DNA from: Clostridiales bacterium
GTDB taxonomy: Bacteria > Bacillota > Clostridia > Christensenellales > Borkfalkiaceae
Direction: 5' to 3'
DNA: 45,945 bases
NCBI GenBank assembly: GCA_015069505.1
Contig: SVIL01000003.1
Location: forward strand, 1 to 45,945
Shown: piece by piece, positions 25,194 through 32,881 of the stretch
How the letters are laid out: the number at the start of each line of letters is the position of its first letter
Position numbering within the stretch: the first letter of the stretch is position 1
Position numbers and translations under genes: made by a program
The notes under the pieces: model-generated
What the model saw: the letters and a program-made list of their open reading frames with translations, nothing else
Database searches by the model: none
What the model was told of the DNA's origin: nothing

Positions 25194-26525
25194 ATGGATT
25201 TTTTTAACGCATACGTAAATTTTCATTTTATAGGAATAGGGGGTGTGTCGATGTCGGCACTCGCAAAGTATCTCGTGTCACTCGGTAAGGTGGTCAGCGG
25301 TAGCGATAAAACCCCCTCTGATAGAACTCGTGAACTTGAACGGCTTGGCGTTAAAGTTCACTATAAACACGCCCCGCAAACTATAAAGCCAGATTGTGTG
25401 GTAGTCTATACTTCGGCGATTGCTGACGACAACCCCGAACTTTTAAGGGCGAAAAGTTTAAACGTAAAAATCTTAAAGCGAAGCGAACTTTTGGGGCTTA
25501 TAATAAAGCGGTTTAATATGGCGGTTGGGGTTTCGGGAAGTCACGGAAAGACCACCACGACGGCTATGATTTCGGATATCCTTTTAATGGGTGGGCTTGA
25601 CCCGACCGTGTTCGTGGGTGGGGACTGCAAAGGCTACGATAATTTTAGGCTTGGCGATACGGAGTTTTGCGTGTTTGAAGCGTGCGAGTATAAACGCAAC
25701 TTTTTAGACCTTAAACCACGCTTTGCGGTAGTTACTAACGTGGATTTTGACCACGTAGAAAGTTATAAGAGCGTGGATGCACAGATAGACGCCTTTCAAA
25801 AGTTTATAGACGGTACCACTTGCTTTATATGTGCAGACGATACTTTTTCAAAAAGGTTGCACTCTGTAACCTGTGTTTCTTTCGGCATAAAAAACACCGC
25901 CAACTTTATGGCGAAAAACCTTGTGAATAATAGTTTGGGGTATTCGTTTAGCGTTTATAGGCAGGGGGTAAGGCTTGGGCGTATAAACTTAAAGGTTAAA
26001 GGGCTATATAACGTATATAACGCCTTGTCTGCCATTGCCTTTGCCGATACCGTGAATTTGCCGTTTAAGGTTATTAAGCAAGCACTTGAAGGCTTTACGG
26101 GTGTAAAACGTAGGGGCGAGATGATAGGTAGGATTAACGGGGTAAAGGCGTACGGGGATTACGCACACCACCCCACCGAAATATTAAACGCAATAAAATG
26201 TTTTGATAAAAACGCTTTGGTGGTCTTTCAACCGCATACCTATTCGCGGACTAAATATCTTTTGCAAGACTTTGTAAACGTTCTTAAACCGCTACCTAAA
26301 CTGATAATCTATAAGACCTACCCCGCCCGTGAAAGTTTTGACGGGGAGGGTTCGGCGAAAAGACTATGCAAAGAAGTGCAAAATGCGGGCGTGGGCATAT
26401 GTTTATATGCACATACGAAAACGGCTTTGCGTAGGCTTATAAAAAAGCAGATAAGCGGTTGCGATTCGGTGGTTTTTATCGGTGCGGGGGATATTTACGA
26501 CCTGGCAAAAACCTTTCTTGACTAA
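25194..26525 (+). CDS. murC: UDP-N-acetylmuramate--L-alanine ligase
   Basis: FHFIGIGGVSMSALAKYLVSLGKVVSGSD, GVSGSHGKTTTTAMI, YGDYAHHPTEI, FQPHTYSRTK. Confidence 0.96.
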   Translation: MDFFNAYVNFHFIGIGGVSMSALAKYLVSLGKVVSGSDKTPSDRTRELERLGVKVHYKHAPQTIKPDCVVVYTSAIADDNPELLRAKSLNVKILKRSELLGLIIKRFNMAVGVSGSHGKTTTTAMISDILLMGGLDPTVFVGGDCKGYDNFRLGDTEFCVFEACEYKRNFLDLKPRFAVVTNVDFDHVESYKSVDAQIDAFQKFIDGTTCFICADDTFSKRLHSVTCVSFGIKNTANFMAKNLVNNSLGYSFSVYRQGVRLGRINLKVKGLYNVYNALSAIAFADTVNLPFKVIKQALEGFTGVKRRGEMIGRINGVKAYGDYAHHPTEILNAIKCFDKNALVVFQPHTYSRTKYLLQDFVNVLKPLPKLIIYKTYPARESFDGEGSAKRLCKEVQNAGVGICLYAHTKTALRRLIKKQISGCDSVVFIGAGDIYDLAKTFLD

Positions 26526-26560
26526 AATTTTAATAAAAAAGTTTAAAGCCCCAAAAATGC

Positions 26561-26589
26561 TTGCCAAAAAAGTATAAATCGTGTAAAAT
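26561..26589 (+). promoter_or_regulatory. Predicted promoter for ldh
   Basis: TTGCCA-17 nt-TAAAAT. Confidence 0.65.
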
Positions 26590-26628
26590 TAGATATGTAA
26601 TTTATAATAGGAGAATATTTGGCAAAAA

Positions 26629-27591
26629 ATGGAAAGCAAAAAGAGAAAGATTGCCGTTCTTGGAACGGGTAACGTAGGTGCAACTATCGCATACGCACTC
26701 ACTTTACAAGGCGTATGTTCTGAAATCGTTTTAGTTGATATCAATAAAGAAAAGGCAGAAGGCGAAGCCCTTGACCTTTCGCAATGTGCCGCAAGCACCC
26801 CTTCTGTAAAGGTTTGGAGCGGTGAATATGAAGACGTTGCAGGTTCAGACATCGTCGTCGTTACTTTCGGTGTTGGCAGAAAGCCCGGTCAATCAAGGCT
26901 TGATCTTGCCGCAATTAACGTAGGCATCTTAAAGAGCGTTATAGGTAACGTTGCAAAAATCGCACCTAACGCTATATATATCGTCGTATCTAACCCCGTT
27001 GACGTATTGACGTACGTTACGATGATGGATACGGGTCTTTCAAAAAATCAAGTTATCGGAACGGGTACGCTTCTTGACAGTAACAGGCTTGCACAAGCCG
27101 TTGCATCTTATTGCAAGGTTGACACTAAGAACGTTAACGCATACGTTTTCGGTGAACACGGCGACGCTTGTATGGCACCTTGGAGTTTGTGTACCGTATG
27201 CGGTATGCCTATCAGAGAGTACTGCACCAAGATTATGGGCGTAAGCAAAGACCAACTTGAAACTGAACTTGAAAACATCTATACGGGTATGGTTGCCGCA
27301 GGTTCTAAGGTTATCAAAGCAAAGGGTGCAACTTTCTATGCAATCGCTGCTTCGACCGTACAACTTATCAAAGCGATTTTGTCCGATACCGAAACCATTT
27401 TACCGCTTGCAACTTATCTTGATGGTGAATACGGTGCTAAAAATCTTTGCACGGGCGTTTTGTGTAAGGTTGGCGGAAACGGGTTTAAGGAAATTATCAA
27501 CGTTCCGTTGCCCGAAGACGAAATGAAGCTTTTCTCTGAAAAACTCGCTTCGCTTGACAACACCTTCAACGCTTTGGGCGTAAGAAAGTAA
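26629..27591 (+). CDS. ldh: L-lactate dehydrogenase
   Basis: KIAVLGTGNVGATIAYALTLQG, SNPVDVLTYV, GTGTLLDSNRL, VFGEHGDACMAPWS. Confidence 0.93.
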   Translation: MESKKRKIAVLGTGNVGATIAYALTLQGVCSEIVLVDINKEKAEGEALDLSQCAASTPSVKVWSGEYEDVAGSDIVVVTFGVGRKPGQSRLDLAAINVGILKSVIGNVAKIAPNAIYIVVSNPVDVLTYVTMMDTGLSKNQVIGTGTLLDSNRLAQAVASYCKVDTKNVNAYVFGEHGDACMAPWSLCTVCGMPIREYCTKIMGVSKDQLETELENIYTGMVAAGSKVIKAKGATFYAIAASTVQLIKAILSDTETILPLATYLDGEYGAKNLCTGVLCKVGGNGFKEIINVPLPEDEMKLFSEKLASLDNTFNALGVRK

Positions 27592-27608
27592 CAATATAAT
27601 TTTTTCTT

Positions 27609-27720
27609 GTAAAAGGGAGTAGTTTGGGAAAGGTTACGCCTTTCCTATGCAATATCGTCAGTACGGGTTTTCCCCGGTATTGCAGAATTATCAAAAGATG
27701 ATTTTAACAAGACTTTTACC
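27609..27720 (+). ncRNA. yybP-ykoY family (Mn2+-sensing) riboswitch aptamer
   Basis: AAAAGGGAGTAG box; P2 GGAAAGG/CCTTTCC; P3 GCAATATCG/CGGTATTGC with conserved TCGTCA and CCGG; P4 AATTATC/GATGATT; conserved AACAAGAC; P1 GTAAAAG/CTTTTAC. Confidence 0.93.
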
Positions 27721-27748
27721 GTTTGGCGGTAGGGGTCTTGTTTTTTTT
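27707..27748 (+). terminator. Riboswitch expression-platform terminator
   Basis: ACAAGACTTTTACCG-TTTG-GCGGTAGGGGTCTTGT then T8; its 5' arm overlaps the 3' strand of P1, so the two are mutually exclusive. Confidence 0.92.
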
Positions 27749-27759
27749 AGGAGAGAAAA

Positions 27760-29100
27760 ATGAAAATTTTCGTGCTTTGTATGTTCATATTAACATACGT
27801 GCTTATAATAGCGTTCACAAGCAAGAAGGCACTTATCACGGGTATAATCGCTTTGGTTTTAAGCGTTGCCTGTTTGATTAGTAAAGACCTATCTTTTGCG
27901 GGGCTATTTTCATCAATTAAGTACGACGTACTGCTTATGCTACTTGGCATAATGATAACCGTCGGGCTTTTTACCGAATCGGGTATGCCTAATATGCTTG
28001 CCGAAAAAATGGTCGGGAAGATTCACAACTCTCTATTTGCGTTAGTGCTACTATCCTTAGTAAGCGGTATCGTATCCGCGTTCGTGGATAACGTTGCGAC
28101 CGTGCTTATGCTTGCCCCGATAGGACTTGCTGTTGCAAAAAAAATAGACGTTTCGCCCATTCCCGTAATAATCTCTATCGCCGTGTCAAGTAACCTTCAA
28201 GGTGCTGCGACGTTAGTGGGGGATACCACGTCCATTATGCTTGCGGATGCCCTCGGTATGTCTTTTTTCGACTTCTTTTTCTGGAACGGAAAATTCTCAA
28301 TTTTTTGGGCGGTCGAACTCGGTATGGTGGCAACTATCCCCATCTTGATTTTTATATTCAGAAAAAACAATAAAAAACTGCTTTACGTCCCTGAAAAGAT
28401 TGAGGTTAAGAGCGTAGTGCCTACTGTTTTATTGCTACTAAACCTAATATGTCTTGCATTGACTTCGCTTTTGCCAAAGGGTATTGAAATCCCTGCAATA
28501 GACTTGGTTACGGGTGCTAATACGACTATCAATATCACCAACGGCGTAATTTGTATGTCGTTTGGAATAATCGGGCTTATACACTTTGCGATTAAAAACA
28601 AGGGGCAGAAGGGACAAGTTGCTAAAACCGTTAAGTCTGCGGTGGACTATCAAACTATTTTATTCTTGCTATTCTTATTCGTAATTATAGCGTGCGTTAC
28701 GTCGGTAGGGATAATCAGTGATATAGGTAACTTCTTTAAGAATATAGGAAGTTCAAACGTATTCTTACTATATACCTTAATAGTTTTCGTTTCGGTTATT
28801 CTTTCGGCGTTTATAGACAATATCCCGTACGTTGCAACTATGTTACCCGTAATTGCGGCGGTAACCGCATCGCCCGAAATGGCGTCTTACGCACCAGTAC
28901 TCTGCTTTGGGCTATTGATAGGTGCTACGCTTGGAGGGAACTTAACCCCCTTTGGTGCGTCGGCAAACGTGGTTGGGATAGGTATTTTAGAGAAGGAAGG
29001 CTACAAGGCGAAAATGTCAGACTTTTTCAAGATAGGTATTCCGTTTACGTTGGTTGCGGTATTAAGCGGATATCTTTATTGTTGGTTTGTTTGGGCATAA
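27760..29100 (+). CDS. ArsB/NhaD (ion transporter superfamily) membrane transporter
   Basis: 446 aa polytopic; repeated motifs SAFVDNVATVLMLAPIGLAVA and SAFIDNIPYVATMLPVIAAV; GATLGGNLTPFGASANVVGIGI. Confidence 0.88.
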   Translation: MKIFVLCMFILTYVLIIAFTSKKALITGIIALVLSVACLISKDLSFAGLFSSIKYDVLLMLLGIMITVGLFTESGMPNMLAEKMVGKIHNSLFALVLLSLVSGIVSAFVDNVATVLMLAPIGLAVAKKIDVSPIPVIISIAVSSNLQGAATLVGDTTSIMLADALGMSFFDFFFWNGKFSIFWAVELGMVATIPILIFIFRKNNKKLLYVPEKIEVKSVVPTVLLLLNLICLALTSLLPKGIEIPAIDLVTGANTTINITNGVICMSFGIIGLIHFAIKNKGQKGQVAKTVKSAVDYQTILFLLFLFVIIACVTSVGIISDIGNFFKNIGSSNVFLLYTLIVFVSVILSAFIDNIPYVATMLPVIAAVTASPEMASYAPVLCFGLLIGATLGGNLTPFGASANVVGIGILEKEGYKAKMSDFFKIGIPFTLVAVLSGYLYCWFVWA

Positions 29101-29121
29101 AAATTAAAAATGCTAAAAATA

Positions 29122-29158
29122 AAAAGCCGATAAACTGTTCAGTTTATCGGCTTTTGTT
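29122..29158 (+). terminator. Terminator between convergent transporter gene and sepF
   Basis: AAAAGCCGATAAACT-GTTC-AGTTTATCGGCTTTT, perfect 15-bp stem, usable on both strands. Confidence 0.88.
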
Positions 29159-29179
29159 ATACCTAAATTTTAGGGTGTT

Positions 29180-29509
29180 TTACTTATTGAGTTCAACACC
29201 GCTTGGTGAGAACATAAAGATATTTTTTTGCATTTCGTAAACGCCACCGTCAAGTGCGTAAATAGCACCAGAAAGCATGTCAAGAACACGGATAGCCGTA
29301 TCCGTTTTAAGTTCGGTAAGATGCACAACTGCATTTTTACCCTTTTTGATTGCGTCAATAATCACAGCCACGTCCTCGTAACTTGTCGGTGCGAATACGG
29401 CAACGGGGGACGAAAACCCTTCCTTGTCGTTGTTTAACGCCGTGTTAACGCTAAGTTTTGAATCTGTCTTTACTCTCGGTTCTCTACCGAATAAATCAAA
29501 AACACCCAT
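29180..29509 (-). CDS. sepF: Cell division protein SepF
   Basis: YEDVAVIIDAIKKGKNAVVHLTELKTDTAIRVLDMLSGAIYALDGGVYEMQKNIFMFSPSGVEL. Confidence 0.93.
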   Translation of the reverse strand: MGVFDLFGREPRVKTDSKLSVNTALNNDKEGFSSPVAVFAPTSYEDVAVIIDAIKKGKNAVVHLTELKTDTAIRVLDMLSGAIYALDGGVYEMQKNIFMFSPSGVELNK

Positions 29510-30187
29510 TTAAATTTTCTCCTCGTAGTTTCTTTTCCCAAAGATAACGCTTCCAAGCCTTATCATATTGCTTCCGTTTTGTACTGCTATTTTATAATCG
29601 GCACTCATACCCATTGATAAATACTCAAAATCAAACCCGTCCGACTTTAATTCATCGTATAGTGACCGCATTTTTTTGCATAGGCTAACGAGTAACGCTT
29701 GGTCTTCAACGTGGGGTAACATAGCCATTAGCCCTTTAAGTTTGACGTTTGGCAGTTTCGACAACTCTTTTGCCATTTCAACGGCGTTGTCTGGGTTAAA
29801 ACCGCTTTTGGAAAGTTCACCGCCGATATTGACTTCCATAAGTATATCTTGCGTAACCTTTTTCTTTACGCACTCGTCGGATATTGCTTGTCCAAGATGG
29901 ATACTATCCACCGATTGTATAAGGTCAACCTTTCCGACTAAGTACTTTACCTTGTTGGTTTGAAGATGCCCTATAAAATGCCATCTTGCAGAGTTATCAA
30001 TAAACCCATACTTTTGCCTAAACTCTTGCACTTTGTTTTCGGCAACCACTTTAAGTCCGCACCTAATCGCTTCGTTTATATCTTCCACGGGCATAGTCTT
30101 GCTCGCCCCAACGATAGTTACGGGTTCGCCTAAGTTATTGCCACCTTCAAGGCTTTTTATAATAGATAAAAGTGAATCCTTTAACAT
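29510..30187 (-). CDS. YggS family pyridoxal phosphate-binding protein
   Basis: VTIVGASKTMPVEDINEAIRCGLKVVAENKVQEFRQKY, WHFIGHLQTNKVKYLV, LSMGMSADYKIAVQNGSNMIRLGSVIFGKR. Confidence 0.94.
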   Translation of the reverse strand: MLKDSLLSIIKSLEGGNNLGEPVTIVGASKTMPVEDINEAIRCGLKVVAENKVQEFRQKYGFIDNSARWHFIGHLQTNKVKYLVGKVDLIQSVDSIHLGQAISDECVKKKVTQDILMEVNIGGELSKSGFNPDNAVEMAKELSKLPNVKLKGLMAMLPHVEDQALLVSLCKKMRSLYDELKSDGFDFEYLSMGMSADYKIAVQNGSNMIRLGSVIFGKRNYEEKI

Positions 30188-30188
30188 T

Positions 30189-30944
30189 TTATTTTTCTGA
30201 AACCAAGTCTTGCATATTGAAAATGCCACTTTTTTTGGTCGCTATATATTTAGCAGCCTTAACCGCCCCAACCGCAAACACGCTTCTGTCAAACGCTTGG
30301 TGGGATAGGGTTACTGTTTCGTTAAGCCCGGCGAACAATACGTCGTGGTCGCCTACGATATTGCCACCCCTTACTGCGTGGATACCAACTTCGGTTTTAG
30401 TGCGTTTACCTACTTTGCCTTCACGCCCGTAAACGTAATTGACTTCGGGTAATTCTTCTTTAACCGCATCGGCAAGCATAAGTGCCGTACCGCTTGGGGA
30501 ATCCACTTTTTGGTTGTGGTGCTTTTCAATGATTTCTATATCAAACCCGTCAAGGCTTTTGACCGCTTTTTTAACTAAATCAATAAGTACGTTTACACCG
30601 AGTGACATGTTTGCCGAACGGAAAATAGCGATAGAGTTTGATGCGTCTTTAATCTTGGCAAGGTCACTATCATCGTACCCCGTAGTGCATAGTACCAAGG
30701 GGATAGAGGTCTTTAACGCATATTCTAAAATAGAGTCGAGACAAACGGGTGAAGAAAAGTCGATTATAACGTCAACCTTTTCGGTAACGCCCGTAAACCC
30801 GTCGTAGATAGGGAAGTTGGGGTTAGATAAATCGGAAACCTTATCCACACCGCAAACGGCTTTAACGCCGTCGTCGGTTGTCGCAGCCTCAAAAACCTTA
30901 CGACCCATCCTTCCAAGTGCTCCGTGAATTAAAACGTTAGTCAT
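30189..30944 (-). CDS. dapB: 4-hydroxy-tetrahydrodipicolinate reductase
   Basis: VLIHGALGRMGRKV, DFSSP, IEIIEKHHNQKVDSPSGTAL, GREGKVGKRTKTEVGIHAVRGGNIVGDHDV; start at MTNVLIHG. Confidence 0.97.
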   Translation of the reverse strand: MTNVLIHGALGRMGRKVFEAATTDDGVKAVCGVDKVSDLSNPNFPIYDGFTGVTEKVDVIIDFSSPVCLDSILEYALKTSIPLVLCTTGYDDSDLAKIKDASNSIAIFRSANMSLGVNVLIDLVKKAVKSLDGFDIEIIEKHHNQKVDSPSGTALMLADAVKEELPEVNYVYGREGKVGKRTKTEVGIHAVRGGNIVGDHDVLFAGLNETVTLSHQAFDRSVFAVGAVKAAKYIATKKSGIFNMQDLVSEK

Positions 30945-30951
30945 AAGCCCC

Positions 30952-31845
30952 TTACTCCTTAACGTTAAGCCCAAAATCTTTAAGGACCTTAATCATAGCG
31001 ATGGTGTGTTCTTCTTCAAGTTCGGTGAGTGGTGCTCTAACGATTCCGCTACCAAGACCGATGAGTTCCGCTGCCTTTTTAACGGGGATAGGGTTGACTT
31101 CGGTAAACATAGAGTCGATTAAAGGCAACAACCTTTCTTGTAAAGCGGTGGCTTCACTGTTTTTGCCTGCAAAATAGAGTTTTGCAACGTCGCCAACCTC
31201 TTTCGGTGCGATGTTTGACGCAACCGAGATAAGCCCCAAAGAACCTATTGAAAGCATAGCGAGGTTTAAGTTGTCGTCACCTGAGTATAGTGCGGTCTTG
31301 CCACGGATAAGCCTTGCGGTTTCACAAATTTGTTCCATATTACCGCAAGCCTCTTTAATACCGCCTATGTTTTTATGTTCGGCGATTTCTGCCATAGTCC
31401 TTGGCAAAATATTTACACCCGTTCTTGCAGGTACGTTATAGCATAAAACGGGGATATCAACGTTGTCGCAAATATCGTTATAGTACTTTACAAGCCCTTT
31501 TTGCGTGCATTTATTGTAATAGGGGGTAACCACCAAAAGACCGTCCGCACCGATTTTCTGTGCGAGTTGGCTCTTTTCGATTGCCTTTTTGGTGCAGTTG
31601 CTACCCGACCCTAAAATAAACTTAACCCTACCTGCGATTTTATCGTAAGAGAATTTTGCAACTTGTTCATACTCAAAGTCGTTTATAGTCGGGGCTTCAC
31701 CCGTAGTGCCTAAAATACAAAGTGCGTCAATGCCGTTTTGGATTTGGAATTCAATTTGTCTGCCCAAAGCGTCAAAGTCAATGCCGTAAGGTGTGAAAGG
31801 GGTTATAGCCGCCGTACACGTGCCCTTAAAAATAGTCTTGTTCAT
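30952..31845 (-). CDS. dapA: 4-hydroxy-tetrahydrodipicolinate synthase
   Basis: GTCTAAITPFTPYGIDFDALGRQIEFQIQNGIDALCILGTTGEAPT, VVTPYYNKCTQKGLVKYYNDI, YNVPARTGVNI, GIKEACGN. Confidence 0.97.
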   Translation of the reverse strand: MNKTIFKGTCTAAITPFTPYGIDFDALGRQIEFQIQNGIDALCILGTTGEAPTINDFEYEQVAKFSYDKIAGRVKFILGSGSNCTKKAIEKSQLAQKIGADGLLVVTPYYNKCTQKGLVKYYNDICDNVDIPVLCYNVPARTGVNILPRTMAEIAEHKNIGGIKEACGNMEQICETARLIRGKTALYSGDDNLNLAMLSIGSLGLISVASNIAPKEVGDVAKLYFAGKNSEATALQERLLPLIDSMFTEVNPIPVKKAAELIGLGSGIVRAPLTELEEEHTIAMIKVLKDFGLNVKE

Positions 31846-31864
31846 AAAAAACTTCCTTTAATGA

Positions 31865-32881
31865 TTAGTTTAATTGATCTTTTACTGCACCGAGAGCGAT
31901 AGCCCTTTCAGCAATTTGAACTGCGTTGGTCGCAGCACCCTTTCTAATGTTGTCAGCAACAACCCAAAGGTTAATGCCGCTTTCAACCGTATCGTCAAGT
32001 CTAACTCTGCCAACGAAAACTTCGTTCTTGTTTTCAGCGGTTAACGCCATAGGATAAACGTTGTTTGCAACGTCGTCTTGTAATACAACGCCTTCTGCGT
32101 TTGCTAAAACCTTCTTAACTTCGTCAAGAGTGCAAGGCTTGTTAAATTCAATATTAACCGATTCGCTGTGACCGTAGTAAACAGGTACTCTAACGCAAGT
32201 TGCGGTAACTTTAATGTTTTGATCGCCCAAGATTTTTTTGGTTTCAAAAATCATCTTGTCTTCTTCTTTGGTGTAACCGTTATCTAAAAATACGTCAATG
32301 TGAGGGATGCAGTTGCCAAAGATGGGGTAAGGGAACTTTTTGGGTGCTTCGCCATTGATGCCGTTTTTAAGGTCGTCAAAGCCCTTTACACCTGCCCCTG
32401 AAACGGCTTGGTAGGTTGAGTAAACCACTCTCTTAATGCCAAAAGCTTCGTGAAGGGGTTTAAGCATAACCACTGCTTGTATAGTAGAACAGTTGGGGTT
32501 AGCAATAATATTCTTATGCCAAAGGATATCGTTTGCGTTACATTCCGGAACTACTAGCGGAACTTCGGGGTCACGCCTCCAAGCGTTTGAGTTGTCTATA
32601 ACGAGAGCACCGTGCTTTGCGAATACGGGTGCAAACTGTTTGCTTATGTCCCCGCCTGCAGAGAAAAGTGCGATATCTATTTTATGGGATTTAACGTTTT
32701 CTTCGTTAAGTTCTATAACCGTATGGGGTTTGCCCATAAAGTCAATAACTTTGCCTGCGGACTTTGCCGAAGCAAACAAATAATAATTTTCAACCGGTAA
32801 ATTTCTTTCGGTCAAAACTTCCAAAAATTTTCTGCCAACCATACCGGTTGCACCGACTACTGCTACGTTGTACTTTTTCAT
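31865..32881 (-). CDS. asd: Aspartate-semialdehyde dehydrogenase
   Basis: YNVAVVGATGMVGRKFLEVL, NPNCSTIQAVVMLKPLHEAFGIKRVVYSTYQAVSGAG, CVRVPVYYGHSESVNIE. Confidence 0.97.
   Translation of the reverse strand: MKKYNVAVVGATGMVGRKFLEVLTERNLPVENYYLFASAKSAGKVIDFMGKPHTVIELNEENVKSHKIDIALFSAGGDISKQFAPVFAKHGALVIDNSNAWRRDPEVPLVVPECNANDILWHKNIIANPNCSTIQAVVMLKPLHEAFGIKRVVYSTYQAVSGAGVKGFDDLKNGINGEAPKKFPYPIFGNCIPHIDVFLDNGYTKEEDKMIFETKKILGDQNIKVTATCVRVPVYYGHSESVNIEFNKPCTLDEVKKVLANAEGVVLQDDVANNVYPMALTAENKNEVFVGRVRLDDTVESGINLWVVADNIRKGAATNAVQIAERAIALGAVKDQLN

Follow-up and report, generated by a model that had tools for sequence, protein, structure and literature searches.

A gene for a candidate Mn2+ exporter stands behind a new member of the yybP-ykoY class of Mn2+ riboswitches in the window, by which we mean the whole 45,945-nucleotide stretch of Clostridiales DNA analyzed here (contig SVIL01000003.1). 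The region from 27607 to 27748 very likely exerts transcriptional ON control over this gene. Our computations establish the class of the RNA, two mutually exclusive helices within the leader, a link between the RNA and the gene that recurs in relatives, the fold of the encoded transporter, and a pocket that is altered from that of its closest structural match. The best reading of the transporter clade is that it probably moves Mn2+, or a divalent metal close to Mn2+, out of the cell.

The leader fills the gap between the stop codon of an L-lactate dehydrogenase (L-LDH) gene (27591) and the start codon of the transporter gene, and the hallmark yybP-ykoY elements that the original prediction had read from the letters were each recovered in place (Table 1). 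Folded by itself, the aptamer adopts a four-way junction with P1–P4 as its minimum-energy structure, and the folding energy of the leader lies 7.5 s.d. below that of shuffled sequences. At the TATAAT hexamer between the L-LDH stop codon and the aptamer, a sigma-70 scan scored no promoter and found no good −35 box. The wider locus (25194–32881) runs murC–L-LDH–riboswitch–transporter and continues with sepF–yggS–dapB–dapA–asd on the opposite strand, and this local order from murC to asd appears partly conserved in the genus.

Table 1. Features of the riboswitch leader, the transporter gene and the adjoining intergenic hairpin (window coordinates).
Feature	Position	Strand	Basis or remark
Perfect −10 hexamer TATAAT	27595-27600	+	sequence; 6 nt 5′ of the aptamer, past the L-LDH stop
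yybP-ykoY (Mn2+) riboswitch aptamer, four-way junction	27607-27721	+	covariance model R1
P1 (switch helix) 5′ strand GTAAAAG	27609-27615	+	fold; covariation over 26 leaders
P1 3′ strand CTTTTAC, partner of 27609-27615	27713-27719	+	fold; covariation over 26 leaders
L1 metal-site loop GGGAGTAG	27615-27622	+	sequence
P2 hairpin	27627-27645	+	fold
P3 with L3 loop (CGTCA 27656-27660, CCGG 27674-27677)	27648-27684	+	sequence
P4 hairpin	about 27685-27704	+	fold
AACAAGAC element	27706-27713	+	sequence
Intrinsic terminator hairpin, 17 pairs	27706-27742	+	terminator scan; 5′ arm includes P1 3′ strand 27713-27719
T8 tract of the terminator	27741-27748	+	sequence
Ribosome-binding site AGGAGAG (AGGAGAGA just before ATG)	27749-27755	+	sequence
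Candidate Mn2+ exporter, ArsB/CitMHS-fold transporter, 446 aa	27760-29100	+	Pfam, fold match, riboswitch in homologues
Hairpin with T-rich flank, between the transporter gene and converging sepF	29122-29155	.	terminator scan; scored as − strand terminator

The identity of the RNA at 27607–27721 as a yybP-ykoY riboswitch is certain for practical purposes. We searched with a covariance model, R1, that originates from pattern matches of the class, with 17 other Clostridia RNAs aligned and the window's own RNA and its genus excluded. R1 scored the aptamer at 55.2 bits (E 1.5e-14, + strand), with no second match in the window or elsewhere in its genome, and a composite sequence pattern gave one match in the 1.33 Mb genome and 0 in a reversed control. 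The E. coli mntP and alx leaders are experimentally validated Mn2+ riboswitches; when R1 was run on 32 kb of E. coli, which belongs to another phylum, it returned mntP (23.8 bits) and alx (19.7 bits) with no other match, and the class named in the original prediction therefore holds.

The metal site of the aptamer is complete. The GGGGAGUAG-type loop expected beside P1 is present as AAAGGGAGTAG at 27612–27622, A27660 is the counterpart of the adenosine that acts as Mn2+ discriminator in L. lactis (A41) and X. oryzae (A48) (PMC6754395), and all other metal-site nucleotides are there. We infer that Mn2+ is the ligand. The RNA could instead be a variant of the yybP-ykoY architecture for another divalent metal (such as Ca2+, Fe2+ or Cd2+), which the transporter would then export; variants that may sense other metals are suspected (PMC7266159), and among the genes behind the RNA in the taxonomic order are those of CaCA exchangers and P-type ATPases, which could transport Ca2+. 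We consider this unlikely, since the GGGAGTA of L1, the CGTCA of L3 and with it the discriminator A are invariant across the 26 aligned leaders, as in the solved Mn2+ aptamers (PMC6754395), and MntP is among the targets of the RNA in that order.

The original prediction had proposed Rfam model RF00080 as a check and had named a non-significant score as grounds for refutation. By this test the RNA formally falls below threshold: RF00080 gave no match over the whole window and, with lax filters on 181 bases, reached 20.1 bits (E 5e-4) against a gathering score of 45, which is a detection cut-off and no biological feature. The same model leaves the validated E. coli mntP leader below threshold (41.6 bits), misses alx, and misses clear Clostridia leaders of MntP and P-type ATPase genes. 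The low score is therefore a matter of model sensitivity, and RF00080 was dropped as the sole test. Many Clostridia RNAs of this very widespread class go undetected by RF00080 (Rfam 15), so the regulon is under-counted. The sub-threshold score is also what would favor a chance likeness, or a dead relic leader that leaves the gene free of metal control; such an account is scarcely credible, and the chance explanation is refuted by the E value of 1.5e-14 with an independent model, by covariation in both alternative helices, and by retention of the RNA in each of the three genomes examined from the genus. Two other Rfam models matched at the site below threshold and were rejected, PyrR as a chance match to the terminator and SSRC10 (RF02617) as no rival, given that it also matches Clostridia MntP leaders. 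Since those leaders match it, SSRC10 (Streptococcus sRNA 10) itself appears to belong to the yybP-ykoY class as a streptococcal representative.

The switch resides in a single strand, 27713–27719, which P1 and the terminator share and which makes the two helices mutually exclusive. This is the expression platform that had been described, in which P1 (GTAAAAG/CTTTTAC) competes with a terminator followed by T8, with the terminator scan giving 17 pairs. Both helices covary across 26 leaders of the transporter family: P1 and the junction pairs are 91.5% paired, and 9 of the 10 pairs have changed on both sides; for the terminator the figures are 93% and 7 of 11. Slid versions of these pairings are only 34–54% paired, and 0 shuffles reach the observed number of paired cells or the covariation score for either helix.

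By folding energy the terminator state lies at −54.9 kcal/mol and the P1 state at −39.2 kcal/mol, and the terminator hairpin taken alone is at −21.9 kcal/mol. Since the terminator state is lower by 15.7 kcal/mol, the gene is predicted to be off by default, and to be expressed only if the aptamer is stabilized before the terminator has been transcribed. Without Mn2+, the terminator (27706–27742) would capture the 3′ strand of P1 and transcription would end at T8; with Mn2+, L1 would dock onto L3 and P1 would be held, so that no terminator would form and the transporter gene would be transcribed. In L. lactis, experiments established that Mn2+ stabilizes P1.1 and blocks the terminator (PMC11087558; PMC6754395). 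The shared strand, the covariation of both helices and this precedent agree with the ON-switch logic first proposed, which is presumably the direction of switching in vivo.

The pairing of this RNA with this transporter is not confined to the window. A scan with the covariance model covered the 80 homologues closest to the transporter among GTDB genomes. In 29 of them, among which are the cultured Butyrivibrio sp. AE3009 and WCD3002, the RNA (E from 1.7e-6 down to 3e-16) lies on the same strand and ends 34–108 nt upstream of the gene; because the 80 loci were picked by similarity to a riboswitch-bearing query, this fraction is not a family-wide rate. Directly upstream of the other 51 the RNA is absent, and among the 81 proteins no residue was found that tells homologues with the riboswitch from those lacking it. 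Outside the window's genus the gene neighborhoods are otherwise unrelated, and a conserved operon was for that reason dropped as the cause of the link. On the protein tree, presence of the RNA changes at least 15 times by parsimony and at least 9 times on starred (well-supported) branches, which implies repeated gain or loss of the RNA. The survey that the original prediction had suggested, of whether the RNA recurrently precedes this transporter clade, thus answers yes, independently of neighborhood and at positions scattered over the tree.

Within the order, strong matches to the RNA (35.9–59.1 bits) lie upstream of the gene at 5 of the 30 best-matching homologue loci; these come from the three genomes examined in the genus and from two in other families. 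With ~100 RNAs in 297 genomes, we estimate that chance adjacency would account for ~0.01 cases. A sixth match, at L053 in genome G360 (2836–2928, − strand), is weak at 21.5 bits; here the leader that precedes a homologue from another family of the order resembles the riboswitch but has diverged or decayed. A strict sequence pattern under-counts the RNA in homologues relative to the covariance model. The pairing is seen in dozens of gut and rumen bacteria, a recurrence that suggests an unrecognized family of Mn2+ exporters.

The yybP-ykoY riboswitch is known to control MntP, P-type ATPases and the CaCA protein YrbG. Across the order, R1 matched 92 of 297 genomes, and the 90 downstream regions (one locus appears twice) hold P-type cation ATPases (24), CaCA exchangers (21), OAD_beta (19) and MntP (7), with Na/Pi transporters in 4 genomes and SPFH proteins in 4. 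The OAD_beta genes (Na+-translocating decarboxylase beta subunit) stand alone under the RNA in 19 genomes (L077, L078, L081, L114, L116 and others); their product is not an obvious Mn2+ exporter, and the annotation may be wrong, or the genes may represent a second new target. The RNA precedes Na/Pi-cotransporter/PhoU-domain proteins at L091 (G422), L171, L174, L084, L090 and L096, and SPFH/Band_7 membrane proteins at L098, L101, L106 and L108. At L171 and L174, two homologue loci that come on top of the 29 described above, the Na/Pi transporter gene behind the RNA ends within 20 nt of the ArsB-like gene, forming an operon, and the order at L174 is RNA–Na/Pi transporter–ArsB-like gene–RNA–P-type ATPase.

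A CaCA exchanger is under the riboswitch in the sister genus. Three genomes from the window's own genus yielded no CaCA gene; between these two genera, one switch governs a different pump. The window's genome also encodes a P-type ATPase and an MntP homologue without a riboswitch, and given the latter, the idea that the organism depends on our transporter alone for Mn2+ export was dropped.

The transporter has the CitMHS/ArsB fold and fits no named subfamily. It passes the Pfam model CitMHS (PF03600; E 2e-48, 165.7 bits against a gathering score of 31.9) and fails the NCBIfam models for ArsB (55–60 bits against cut-offs of 415–760) and NhaD (24 against 80) as well as the DASS/SLC13 model (53.9 against 198.6). 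The best match to its predicted structure (mean pLDDT 84.7) is ArsB of L. ferriphilum (PDB 10tp; TM 0.78–0.81). As modeled, the protein is an elevator-type member of the ion transporter superfamily, nearest ArsB in fold, and the gene assignment of the original prediction, an ArsB/NhaD-superfamily transporter, is upheld.

To compare the pockets, residues were mapped by profile alignment together with the published description of L. ferriphilum ArsB, an arsenite/H+ antiporter with an As(OH)3 site at Asn111/Asn337 and a H+-coupling Asp148 (PMC13381914). At 18% identity, the two As(OH)3-contacting residues are kept as N111 and N354 and the H+-coupling residue as D155, whereas ArsB Asp112, Ser380, Lys374 and Asp370 are replaced by V112, A400, N394 and T390, changes shared by all 81 homologues. 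Of the As(OH)3 site (Asn111, Asn337, Ser380, Asp112), only the Asn pair is therefore retained. In addition, D110 and D353, which sit at ArsB A110 and N336 beside the two ligand Asn, are invariant along with D155 in 81 of 81 homologues and are absent from ArsB. The two extra acids at the ligand site would suit a divalent cation more than an anion or a neutral metalloid. It is very improbable that the protein is a true ArsB arsenite exporter with a Mn2+ riboswitch in front of it by coincidence: ArsB is the best structural match and the residues equivalent to N111 and N337 are kept, but the ArsB cut-offs are far off (55–57 against 415–457 bits), the metalloid-site Ser380 and Asp112 are Ala and Val, and no ars gene occurs among the window neighbors examined.

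A different possibility is that the transporter is induced by Mn2+ yet moves Na+, H+, carboxylate or phosphate, in a role secondary to Mn2+ stress such as pH or charge balance. Pfam does assign the protein to CitMHS, the RNA controls OAD_beta and Na/Pi transporters in the order, a Na/Pi transporter shares an operon with two homologues, and in E. coli the alx riboswitch is linked to alkaline pH in addition to Mn2+ (PMC9603457). We nevertheless judge this improbable, as the DASS SNT motif is replaced by DNV or DNI with acidic residues, which are ill-suited to a polyanion, and the single-gene link recurs alone in 29 loci. Since OAD_beta and Na/Pi transporters are not known Mn2+ exporters, the presence of the RNA does not necessarily indicate direct efflux of Mn2+, and with 51 of 80 homologues lacking the RNA and no residue setting them apart, the substrate may be broader or different.

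Mn2+ export would still be the most economical reading of the transporter, although the RNA may be tuned to another divalent metal. On this reading the ion carried by the protein at 27760–29100 would be Mn2+, or a close divalent metal, expelled perhaps by H+ antiport. In our literature search we found no paper linking the yybP-ykoY riboswitch to ArsB, SLC13 or CitMHS proteins; the two founding 2015 papers lie outside its scope and may hold gene lists. As far as the searchable literature goes, beyond those two papers, we propose Mn2+ export as a new function for the transporter.

More broadly, we lean towards the view that a clade of ArsB/CitMHS-fold transporters with a three-Asp pocket, widespread in gut and rumen Clostridia, is an unrecognized Mn2+ exporter family that has repeatedly come under yybP-ykoY control or escaped from it. 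The main Mn2+ efflux systems named in a 2026 paper are of four types (CDF, MntP, UPF0016 and P-type ATPase), with TerC emerging (PMC13274385). If our proposal is true, the ArsB-fold clade would be another type, and a substrate could be given to the at least 595 relatives found by pattern matching, whose nearest annotated families are citrate, arsenite and dicarboxylate transporters. The structural work on ArsB, which deals with a neutral metalloid, would also be extended to a divalent cation through a few pocket changes.

Several known systems bear comparison with this one. With the DASS/SLC13 transporter VcINDY the protein shares the inverted-repeat ion transporter fold (TM about 0.65), but in place of the SNT substrate/Na+ motif it has DNV at 110–112, with D110 at the Ser position. 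MamN, a magnetosome ArsB/NhaD-like transporter, is the best NCBIfam match (E 2e-24), yet the score is 86 bits against a cut-off of 500, and the neighboring genes examined are housekeeping genes, none of them a magnetosome gene. E. coli YbiR belongs to the same Pfam family (CitMHS), with 21% identity over 122 aa, and R1 found no riboswitch at ybiR. In E. coli K-12, ybiR (L231:2184–3766) overlaps the Mn regulator gene mntR by 4 nt, which is a second, independent hint that the superfamily touches Mn homeostasis, though distant and only a lead. The known Mn2+ exporters (MntP, UPF0016/MneA, TerC/Alx, CDF and P-type ATPases) fall by Pfam into other families than the transporter, and several of them are under the same riboswitch class. 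On the RNA side the comparison is with L. lactis yoaB, a transcriptional ON Mn2+ riboswitch: the window RNA differs from that type in being too distant to pass the RF00080 threshold, and in serving a transporter family absent from the Mn2+ efflux types in the papers found, but it has in common with yoaB the L1 and L3 loops, the discriminator A, the four-way junction and the sharing of a strand between P1 and the terminator.
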